The position numbers and the translations under genes were made by a program. This document shows, in pieces, positions 215 to 41,320 of a stretch of 41,401 nucleotides of DNA. This DNA comes from an uncultured Bacteroidales bacterium (GTDB lineage: Bacteria; Bacteroidota; Bacteroidia; Bacteroidales; UBA4417), in assembly GCA_903887815.1 (NCBI GenBank), contig CAISRK010000490.1, positions 1 through 41,401 of the forward strand, in the 5' to 3' direction. How positions within the stretch are numbered: position 1 is the first letter of the stretch; each line of letters opens with the position of its first letter. Below the pieces are notes generated by a model. That model did no database searches, had not been told where the DNA came from, and was given only the letters and a program-made list of their open reading frames with translations.

Positions 215-249
215 ACATCCGACATCTAACATCCGACATCCCACATTAT
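215..249. repeat. Heptad array ACATCCG type ending at the cysS stop codon
   Basis: ACATCCG ACATCTA ACATCCG ACATCCC ACATTAT. Confidence 0.88.
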
Positions 250-5918: not shown

Positions 5919-5980
5919 GCAGGAAACTGATTTCAATTGAGAATCTGCTACCTATGATCTTCAATATAAAAGAATATCAA

Positions 5981-6085
5981 TTAACGATTAACGATTTTAG
6001 ATTTTAGAAGAAGGCACATGTTCTGTCAGAAATTCACTTCAAAAATCGCCAATCGCCAATCCTTGTTCTTAAATCAAAAAATCAA
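5981..6085. repeat. Heptad-containing dispersed intergenic element, copy A (argG-argC gap)
   Basis: TTAACGA TTAACGA TTTTAGA TTTTAGA (5981-6008), AATCGCC AATCGCC AATCCTT (6044-6064), then TTGTTCTTAAATCAAAAAATC; homologous to 11641-11740. Confidence 0.85.
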
Positions 6086-14323: not shown

Positions 14324-14540
14324 GATATAAGTGTCTTTTTAAACGAATCATCAAATTTACTTTATATAAATACACCAACCGTAAATAAATCCAGGTATCG
14401 CAACTGATCTTTTCAATCTGATAGCTGAAAAATTCGGAATCAGATTCGCTTAATAATTAAGTCAAAAACACAAATTTAACCGTTAAAATAATTTACATAT
14501 ACCATTCTTTATCAACTATTTATATGCATTAACAATATTT

Positions 14541-14624
14541 TACTCAATATATAGAGTACTTTTACTCAATATATAGGGTATTTTTACTTTATATTATGAG
14601 TATTTTTACTCAATATATTGCGTA
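14541..14624. repeat. Four tandem imperfect 18-bp palindromes at 22-bp period (operator-like array)
   Basis: TACTCAATATATAGAGTA (14541-14558), TACTCAATATATAGGGTA (14563-14580), TACTTTATATTATGAGTA (14585-14602), TACTCAATATATTGCGTA (14607-14624); consensus TACTCAATATATTGAGTA is a perfect palindrome. Confidence 0.9.
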
Positions 14625-14630
14625 ATTTTG
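14623..14630 (+). promoter_or_regulatory. -7 element TAATTTTG for the DUF4143 ATPase
   Basis: TAnnTTTG match at the end of palindrome 4, about 30 nt upstream of the likely ATG at 14659. Confidence 0.5.
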
Positions 14631-14658
14631 TGTGTGAAATTGAGTGAAATTCATTTTT

Positions 14659-15843
14659 ATGATTAAACGTACACATTTACAACTGGTTATAAGCAGGATT
14701 AAAGAAAAGAGAAGGTTTATGCAGGTGCTTGCCGGACCGCGGCAGGTTGGGAAAACCACATTGGTTTTGCAGTTACTCGAAGAACCGGGAATCCGGGGAT
14801 TGTATGTTGCCGCCGATGATATCTCGGGGATTGGACAGTCGTGGATAGAACTTCAATGGGAAACTGCGAGGCAGAAACTGAAAACGGCTGAATCAGACTC
14901 CTTTGTTCTGATCATTGATGAAATACAAAAAATCCCGAACTGGAGCGAAACCGTAAAACGCTTGTGGGATGCCGATAGCCGCGAAAACATTCCGTTGCAT
15001 GTAATTCTGCTGGGTTCTTCCAGGTTATTGCTTCAAACAGGAATGACCGAATCGCTTGCCGGCAGGTATGAAACCATGTATATCAGCCACTGGTCGCTTG
15101 CCGAAATGCGGGAAGCTTTTGGCTGGAGCGCTGATCAGTATGCCTGGTATGGAGGGTTTCCGGGAGCAGCTTCCCTGATTCCGGATGAGGGAAGATGGAA
15201 AAACTATATTAATAACTCGCTGGCTGAAACAAGCATTTCGAAAGATATCCTGATGATGTCGCGGGTTGATAAGCCGGCATTGATGAAGCGGCTTTTCGAT
15301 TTGGGTTGCTCCTATTCGGGCCAGATGCTCTCGTTCAACAAAATACTGGGTCAGTTGCTTGATGCAGGAAATACTACCACCTTGTCGCATTACCTCGGTT
15401 TGCTGGATTCAGCCGGAATGCTTGGCGGACTTGAAAAGTTTTCACGCGATAAAGCCCGGAAACGTTCGTCGAGTCCAAAGTTCCAGGTTCACAATACTGC
15501 CTTTACCAGTGCATTGCACCCGTACGATTTCCAGAGGATCATCACCGACAGGGAAAAATGGGGACGGGTTATCGAATCGTCAGTCGGGGCTCACCTGATA
15601 AACAATGCTTACTCACAGGGATATTCATTATTCTACTGGCGTGAAGGCAATTACGAAGTGGATTTCGTACTTGAACACAAAGGCCGGGTGGTAGCTCTCG
15701 AGGTAAAAAGCGGCCATAGCCTCCGCACCGCAGGAATGATGCAATTCAGGAAGTATTATCCCGACTCGAAAATAATGCTGGTCGGACGCGAAGGCATCCC
15801 CTGGGAAGAGTTTTTATTGTTAAATCCGATGAAGTTATTCTAG
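14659..15843 (+). CDS. ATP-binding protein, AAA_14 / DUF4143 family
   Basis: Walker A VLAGPRQVGKTTLVLQLL, Walker B LIIDEIQKIPNW, SSRLLLQTGMTESLAGRYE; C-terminal FYWREGNYEVDFVLEHKGRVVALEVKSG. ORF track starts at GTG 14644; ATG 14659 more likely. Confidence 0.93.
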   Translation: MIKRTHLQLVISRIKEKRRFMQVLAGPRQVGKTTLVLQLLEEPGIRGLYVAADDISGIGQSWIELQWETARQKLKTAESDSFVLIIDEIQKIPNWSETVKRLWDADSRENIPLHVILLGSSRLLLQTGMTESLAGRYETMYISHWSLAEMREAFGWSADQYAWYGGFPGAASLIPDEGRWKNYINNSLAETSISKDILMMSRVDKPALMKRLFDLGCSYSGQMLSFNKILGQLLDAGNTTTLSHYLGLLDSAGMLGGLEKFSRDKARKRSSSPKFQVHNTAFTSALHPYDFQRIITDREKWGRVIESSVGAHLINNAYSQGYSLFYWREGNYEVDFVLEHKGRVVALEVKSGHSLRTAGMMQFRKYYPDSKIMLVGREGIPWEEFLLLNPMKLF

Positions 15844-31153: not shown

Positions 31154-31354
31154 GACAAGGCGAGCGGGAGACAAGGCGAGGGGCGACAGGGTGATGGGAA
31201 AATAGGGCGACAAGGAGAAGGGAGAAAATGATGGATGGCGGATGTAAGATCGCGAAACGCTGGAACCCTTTAATCTTTTGAACGCGCGCAGCGCATTGAA
31301 CCAGGAACATTGAACAACGAACATTGAACGCGCGAAGCGCATTGAACCAGGAAC
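31154..31354. repeat. Heptad-period repeat spacer between cysD and cysN
   Basis: GACAAGG/CGAGGGG-type G-rich heptads, then nnnGAAC heptads; 31-bp direct repeat TTGAACGCGCGMAGCGCATTGAACCAGGAAC at 31278-31308 and 31324-31354 (1 mismatch). Confidence 0.85.
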
Positions 31355-39015: not shown

Positions 39016-39018
39016 AAG

Positions 39019-39190
39019 TTACTTGTTACTGGTCGCTGGTTACTGGTTACTGGTATTAAGCCGGTATGATTGTTTGTTTCTGAGTTAAGATATCACATTT
39101 TGTTTTCGCAATGACCTTTGTTTTCTGATATTTTGACTTTTACTTTCCTCGTATCCCGTTTTCTGTATTTCGCCTCTTGTCCCTTGTCCC
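39019..39190. repeat. Two heptad arrays in the permease-permease spacer
   Basis: 39019-39053: TTACTTG TTACTGG TCGCTGG TTACTGG TTACTGG; 39149-39190: TCGTATC CCGTTTT CTGTATT TCGCCTC TTGTCCC TTGTCCC (G every 7 nt). Confidence 0.9.
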
Positions 39191-40288: not shown

Positions 40289-40292
40289 TTTA

Positions 40293-40416
40293 ATTTGCGA
40301 TTTCGGATTTACGATTTACGATTGGCTGGTCATTTATTTCTATTATACTATGGGTTATTTGAATCTGATCCGAGTGTTCTTGATTCGTACCTCGTAAATC
40401 GTAATTCGTAAATCAC
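40293..40416. repeat. Inverted heptad arrays in the ATPase-permease spacer
   Basis: 40293-40320: TTTGCGA TTTCGGA TTTACGA TTTACGA; 40382-40416: GATTCGT ACCTCGT AAATCGT AATTCGT AAATCAC; 40298-40320 and 40392-40414 are inverted repeats (20/23). Confidence 0.9.
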
Positions 40417-40424
40417 CTTACTTG

Positions 40425-41144
40425 TCAATTCCTTGCTATTTTCAGAAACACCTCCTCAATATTAGCCGCATTGTATTTTAGCTTCAGGTTTGCGGGTGTA
40501 TCGAGTGCTACAATTTTCCCGTCAGCCATTATGCTTACGCGTTTACAGTATTCGGCTTCGTCCATATAGTGAGTGGTCACAAAAACGGTAATTCCCTGGC
40601 TGGCAGTTTCGTAAATGATTTCCCAGAACTGCCTCCGGGTTATCGGATCCACTCCCCCGGTAGGTTCATCGAGAAAAACGATTGAAGGCCGGTGAATAAT
40701 AGCTACTGAAAAAGCCAGTTTCTGTTTCCACCCCAAGGGAAGTGAACCCAGCAACTGGTTTTTTTCACTTTCAAGCCCCAGGCGGCCCAGCAGTTCCGTT
40801 GTTCTTTGTTTAATGGTTGCTGACGAAAGCCCGTAAATGCCCCCGTAAAACTGGAAATTTTCCCATACCGAAAGGTCCTCGAAAAGCGAAAAACGCTGGC
40901 TCATATATCCTATCCGTTTTTTAATCATTTCCGCCTGACGGTAAACATCAAAACCTGCAATCATGACTTTCCCCGATGTAGGTGCCGACAATCCGCAAAG
41001 TATTTTCATTGCGGTGGTTTTCCCTGCCCCGTTTGCACCCAGGAAACCAAATATTTCGCCTTCCTCCACCGAAAAAGTAAGGTGATCGTTGGCTACAAAG
41101 CTTCCGAATTTTTTTACCAGGTTTTCGACTTCGATGATGGGCAT
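40425..41144 (-). CDS. ABC transporter ATP-binding protein
   Basis: Walker A GFLGANGAGKTTAMKIL, LGSLPLGWKQKLAFSVAIIHRPSIVFLDEPTGGVDPITRR. Confidence 0.96.
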   Translation of the reverse strand: MPIIEVENLVKKFGSFVANDHLTFSVEEGEIFGFLGANGAGKTTAMKILCGLSAPTSGKVMIAGFDVYRQAEMIKKRIGYMSQRFSLFEDLSVWENFQFYGGIYGLSSATIKQRTTELLGRLGLESEKNQLLGSLPLGWKQKLAFSVAIIHRPSIVFLDEPTGGVDPITRRQFWEIIYETASQGITVFVTTHYMDEAEYCKRVSIMADGKIVALDTPANLKLKYNAANIEEVFLKIARN

Positions 41145-41150
41145 TCAGAT

Positions 41151-41320
41151 AGGGTTTAGGAGTTTGGGATTGGGGATGTCGGATGTCGGATGTATTCTTT
41201 AATTAAAATTTTCAATAACCTGATTATTCCAGGCTTTTAATTTCTGCGGTTATTTTAATCTTATTCCTTAACTAGGTTCCCCTTTAAATTTGGGTCTTGA
41301 AATTTGGAACCTGGAATTTT
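41151..41320. repeat. Two heptad arrays in the ATPase-ATPase spacer
   Basis: 41151-41192: AGGGTTT AGGAGTT TGGGATT GGGGATG TCGGATG TCGGATG; 41286-41320: AAATTTG GGTCTTG AAATTTG GAACCTG GAATTTT. Confidence 0.88.

Follow-up and report, generated by a model that had tools for sequence, protein, structure and literature searches.

Opposed heptanucleotide arrays at either end of a spacer between ABC-2 permease genes in an uncultured Bacteroidales bacterium

The window analyzed here, a stretch of 41,401 nucleotides, constitutes a single contig in a Bacteroidales metagenome assembly of 4.26 Mb. Its minus strand carries a gene run in which an ABC transporter ATPase is followed by two ABC-2 permease genes, referred to below as P1 and P2 (Table 1). 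The permease genes are separated by a 175-nt spacer (39016-39190) that displays tandem arrays of 7-nt units, or heptads, at both gene edges. One array begins directly at the P1 stop and the other lies 3 nt from the P2 start codon, a TTG whose conservation is apparent in the orthologues in an alignment judged by eye. Read on the coding strand, the units following the P1 stop are GGGACAA GGGACAA GAGGCGA AATACAG AAAACGG GATACGA. The centre of the spacer has no significant periodicity of its own, and no copy of it is found elsewhere in the genome among the matches listed, where only array stretches and parts of genes recur.

Table 1. Genes, repeat arrays and spacer segments located in the window.
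Feature	Position	Strand	Description and basis
ABC transporter ATPase (first in the run)	40425..41144	-	Pfam PF00005, E 4.1e-29
P1, ABC-2 permease, 365 aa	39191..40288	-	Pfam PF12698, E 7e-48
P2, ABC-2 permease, 371 aa	37900..39015	-	Pfam PF12698, E 1.1e-49
Heptad array adjoining the P2 start	39019..39053	-	Sense CCAGTAA-type; Tandem Repeats Finder and lag-7 identity
Degenerate heptad array right after the P1 stop	39149..39190	-	Lag-7 identity
Spacer centre, read as decayed heptads	39054..39148	-	7-nt periodicity and skew persist when the centres of such spacers are pooled
Heptad array, P1-start side of the ATPase-P1 spacer	40293..40323	-	ATTTACG
Opposed array, ATPase-stop side of the ATPase-P1 spacer	40385..40414	-	TCGTAAA, reverse complement of the ATTTACG-array word
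Heptad array upstream of the ATPase start	41150..41193	+	TAGGGTT...GGATGTC
Opposed heptad array pair, other spacer	5980..6061	+	ATTAACG/GATTTTA, then AATCGCC
Heptad array	215..246	+	ACATCCG

The array next to P2 reads TTACTTG TTACTGG TCGCTGG TTACTGG TTACTGG, as a preliminary description of this DNA had reported, and is made of three exact TTACTGG units and two variants. It is far beyond chance, with a lag-7 identity of 0.68 (z 4.5) and a Tandem Repeats Finder score of 53. Across the genome, 8 sites carry the exact doublet TTACTGGTTACTGG and 0 carry its reversed control. In the array next to P1, the same description had noticed a G at every seventh position of otherwise variable units. The six G (39151, 39158, 39165, 39172, 39179 and 39186) are confirmed, and the lag-7 identity of this array is 0.63 (z 3.3). 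Among first-order Markov sequences of this spacer, 0.15% contain six G at period 7 (P ~0.0015) and about 1% a six-G run at any period from 4 to 12 (P ~0.01). The last two units are identical (CTTGTCC) and columns besides that of the G are also non-random. By itself this array is modest evidence; it becomes convincing because period 7 dominates the intergenic arrays genome-wide and because spacers of this kind retain an identity excess at lags 7 and 14 once their arrays are masked.

A sample of about 313 kb of this genome contains 42 intergenic arrays with a 7-nt period, 6 with an 8-nt period and 2 with a 9-nt period, periods 4-6 and 10-13 being absent. Three further genomes of the genus display a similar period spectrum, and the same order is observed at 80 named Bacteroidota loci, where 64 arrays have period 7, 20 have period 8 and 15 have period 9, and none of periods 4-6 and 10-13 is represented by more than 6. 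The feature shows what characterizes a heptanucleotide intergenic simple sequence repeat (LSSR), namely tandem 7-nt units beyond chance and chiefly intergenic. The array-bearing gap between P1 and P2 is one of hundreds in the genome, the extrapolated figure of about 400-550 arrays being rough since some of the sampled contigs were picked for TTACTGG doublets. Genes were called by a simple open-reading-frame rule in the genome samples, which are metagenome assemblies, and same-word arrays are not fully independent, so that the P values given here serve as guides.

Conservation of a period without conservation of a word, to which the preliminary description had drawn attention, is genuine and frequent both in this genome and across the genus, as indicated by the period counts and by the periodicity of masked spacers. 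With even weak arrays masked, array-bearing spacers keep an identity excess (z +4.9 for lag 7, z +3.5 for lag 14); the excess is about zero at both lags in array-free spacers. The opinion that simple slippage explains such arrays poorly was not borne out. Across 47 long arrays, the identity between units is 0.765 for adjacent ones and declines smoothly to 0.583 at lag 7, against 0.658 when their order is shuffled, and neighbouring units are thus the most alike, as local duplication followed by mutation predicts. On the sequences themselves, slippage combined with mutation is a well supported candidate for the process behind the arrays. The transition/transversion ratio, considered as a decay clock, was useless because the fourfold-site yardstick is saturated. 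A separate case of drift was encountered at L157:12128-12266, where the words of one array pass from CTTCC to CATCC and then AATCC with the 7-nt register kept.

Where both genes share a contig, the P1-P2 spacer measures 171-470 nt throughout a ten-genome clade (support 98/97). In the two nearest genomes outside this clade it measures 38 and 45 nt and is devoid of arrays; the inserts relative to short orthologous spacers amount to ~130-430 nt. The clade spacers contain heptad and sometimes octad or nonad arrays, whose position is kept while the words change. CCAGTAA types are found in G000, G007, G008 and G010, TTGAAC/GCGAAGC in G002, G003 and G011, CCCTGAA (8 nt) in G006 and GGGATTGAT (9 nt) in G009, where the contig ends inside the array. 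In G013, the permeases are located on different contigs and a weak array follows P1. The closest genomes compared are ~77-84% identical in DNA, and the word groups placed on the gene tree offer too few rows for telling inheritance from recurrence. Each genome prefers different words: three units of CTGGTTN were found 37 times in G000 and 32 times in G009, every other genome of the genus having 4 occurrences or fewer and the reversed controls 0 or 1, which makes the vocabulary lineage-specific. Within a genome, words are shared by unrelated spacers, with 30 identical-word array pairs versus 1.9 when the letters are shuffled, and the flanks of same-word arrays are homologous only in short stretches of ~40 nt or less. 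Within one genus, repeats of this kind can build and rewrite entire operon spacers.

A stronger pattern than the G column, overlooked in the preliminary description, is the mirror polarity of the arrays. In 91 of 116 arrays (P=5e-10), the G-rich strand heads into the spacer from the closest gene edge and, in four genomes, the plus strand is G-rich in 42 of the 50 arrays located in the left part of a spacer versus 9 of the 50 located in the right part. The bias is strongest within 15 nt of a stop, where inward arrays account for 36 of 41; they account for 35 of 42 on the start side. The polarity is seen for tandem as well as convergent gene pairs, divergent pairs being too few; among the 23 arrays of convergent pairs, 9 of 12 are G-rich on the left and 0 of 11 on the right. 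Loci outside the genus display it too (left, 18 vs 4; right, 11 vs 3). It also holds for words unable to form quadruplexes, with counts of 35 vs 10 when the longest G or C run in the word is 1 and of 56 vs 9 when it is 2. After masking of the arrays, array-bearing spacers remain skewed towards G in the left half (+0.168) and towards C in the right half (-0.109), the corresponding values being +0.024 and -0.042 in array-free ones; entire spacers thus behave like decayed heptads with this polarity. Substitutions between units, judged by position alone, avoid C on the inward strand. Left and right arrays co-occur in the same spacer within every spacer-length class, with odds ratios of 3.3 to 59 or more. 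The words at the two ends of a spacer match no better than permuted partners, and no gradient of homogeneity with direction was observed inside the arrays (0.797 vs 0.810, P 0.44).

Octad and nonad arrays (CTGAAACA-type and GGCACTTTA-type) occur beside heptads at L153:4888-5222 and in other spacers, and the octads follow the same polarity at a lower frequency. In the more distant genome G108, represented by a sample with few arrays, 5 point inward and 5 outward, and a single 17-mer makes up four of the outward ones. This 17-mer, CAAATAACAAATAACAA, is found after stops at L284:11573, L290:8616, L292:1738 and L292:12965 of this other Bacteroidia genome and is possibly the end of a mobile element.

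The spacer between P1 and P2 is probably composed of two opposed tracts of a heptanucleotide intergenic satellite. Units would be gained and lost through 7-nt slippage or local duplication, a polymerase-favoured step as proposed by Mrazek's group. They would then mutate and be re-amplified, so that the register would persist while the word drifts, and arrays may accumulate where coding sequence does not forbid them. Such arrays are probably without sequence-specific function. Slippage alone does not predict the shared vocabulary or the left-right co-occurrence and leaves the mirror polarity unexplained, and the avoidance of C on the inward strand is not predicted by strand-symmetric mutation. 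The polarity most likely reflects strand-directional growth, through which an array and its trailing decayed product would come to lie on one side of a gene edge; we infer this from the pattern as the weakest step of the explanation, the alternative being selection on the transcribed strand beside starts and stops. A mutational origin of the polarity would indicate that some step of replication or repair is directional. That a single process adding 7-base G-rich, C-poor units in a strand-directional manner makes spacers grow inward from both gene edges, in Bacteroidales as in Xanthomonas and Nostoc, appears rather unlikely.

Several other explanations were weighed against the satellite. Directional synthesis at DNA ends, which we regard as unlikely, would have a polymerase add 7-nt G-rich, C-poor units to both 3' ends of a break in the spacer before joining, in the topology of a telomere-telomere fusion. 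It would account for a G strand directed inward at both edges whatever the gene orientation, for the co-occurrence of both ends, for inward-strand variants avoiding C and for the switch of skew in mid-spacer, but the arrays show clear signs of later slippage, their words differ from array to array, and no recent insertion facing a nearly identical empty site was encountered. It is also improbable that the polarity results from gene-relative selection on slippage arrays, only one orientation surviving where G-poor RNA is required before starts and C-poor RNA, Rho-resistant for example, after stops. The inward bias beside both stops and starts would be expected in that case, and the sense RNA of the P1-P2 spacer is less folded than its shuffles (z +2.2). 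However, array spacers are not clearly less folded in general (mean z -1.03, SE 0.28, vs -1.54, SE 0.26, for array-free spacers), and the polarity is kept by convergent pairs, where early termination should be harmless, which speaks against selection via premature termination.

A non-autonomous mobile element inserted between genes, with the heptad arrays as its terminal inverted repeats, is very unlikely. Inverted ends, inserts relative to the short orthologous spacers and the co-occurrence of ends are all features of such an element, and matching ends are indeed present in some spacers (40289-40424 in the window and the orthologous spacers of G002, G003 and G011). Against it stand the two-end words, for which the pairing with permuted partners is as good and the duplex energies give P 0.34-0.98 in four genomes, as well as the brevity of the homology around same-word arrays. 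The P1-P2 spacer lacks the matching inverted ends of a MITE-like element, GTTACTG facing GGACAAG, and a multicopy body was rejected as well, given that neither the spacer centre nor anything else than array stretches and gene parts recurs among the matches listed.

The preliminary description had also suggested looking for a protein or RNA whose recognition register is 7 nt; such a factor would read one fixed column every 7 nt and tolerate the rest. Besides the G column, a CTGGNNN family in this genome and an uneven distribution of raw departures among columns (1175 vs 504, each copy counted) are in line with this reading, which is nevertheless highly improbable. Decayed heptads without word conservation are widespread. 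The fixity of columns disappears when distinct variants are counted once: their distribution among the seven columns is that of random placement (30.49 vs a null of 30.46), only the window's own genome being nominally unequal (P 0.035, one of five sets). A column therefore looks fixed mainly because variants get re-copied. G columns showed no special conservation (G 0.744, A 0.739, T 0.713, C 0.678), and the favoured words differ by genome. Considered together, the gradient between neighbouring units and the even spread over columns indicate that local copying with mutation suffices, and a recognition register is unneeded and without support. A regulatory RNA hairpin or G-quadruplex located between the genes of an operon, mostly refuted and equally hard to credit, would agree with a G-rich arm preceding a C-rich arm and with the quadruplexes made in vitro by Xanthomonas and Nostoc heptads (PMC4692102), but the P1-P2 spacer folds worse than 199 of 200 shuffles, no Rfam match exists within the window, the arms are devoid of specific pairing, array spacers are not more folded than others, and words without G runs obey the polarity, which removes quadruplex formation as its explanation.

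The satellite reading places the arrays among repeats already known in prokaryotes. Mrazek and co-workers (2007; cited in PMC4679880 and PMC4692102) dealt with heptanucleotide long simple sequence repeats, a size class dominated by 7-nt units for which polymerase-linked slippage was proposed. The Bacteroidales arrays share this dominance but are short, degenerate and many-worded and fill whole spacers in opposed pairs. The preference of bacterial satellites for exactly seven bases has been a standing question since 2007. Quadruplex-forming GGGAATC and GGGGAYT heptads were described by Rehm et al. (2015) in Xanthomonas and Nostoc, with no function found; they lie between genes, near stops when on the sense strand or near starts when on the antisense strand, they form opposed pairs in Xanthomonas, and their length and sequence vary between species (PMC4692102). 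There as here, the G strand runs away from the nearest gene. Those genomes nevertheless use one quadruplex-forming word type each, whereas many words are present here, most of them unable to form a quadruplex. The P1-P2 spacer does not contain words of that type (a run of 3-4 G in at least 4 units), TTACTGG having GG only and GGGACAA being limited to two units.

The TAACTGA direct repeats of Beggiatoaceae, Cyanobacteria and five Bacteroidetes (MacGregor 2015; PMC4679880) are likewise 7-nt intergenic direct repeats. They often lie just before starts, a translational role was proposed for them, and other heptamers accompany them in long Bacteroidetes arrays (PMC4679880). They differ from the present arrays by their single word, since no fixed word is used here and both gene edges are occupied; the words of the P1-P2 spacer are TTACTGG and GGGACAA, and identity with TAACTGA was rejected. 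The inward-polarity rule for G-rich heptads is already published for Xanthomonas and Nostoc (PMC4692102), and no description of a many-word Bacteroidales heptad system was found in the literature searched. New here are a vocabulary of many words that turns over at orthologous spacers, the decay seen in spacer interiors and a polarity that does not depend on quadruplex potential.

Other tandem repeats were noticed in the window. Short arrays at 31154-31199 and 31294-31329 have a 15-nt unit, GACAAGGCGAGGGGA, and a 14-nt unit equivalent to two heptads, CATTGAACAACGAA. Four imperfect copies of a 22-nt unit, TTTTACTCAATATATAGAGTAT, are present at 14538-14629, just upstream of an open reading frame (14644-15843) whose product resembles, by eye, an ATPase with a nuclease-like end. 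This 22-nt unit contains the inverted repeat ACTC...GAGT and therefore looks like a repeated operator.
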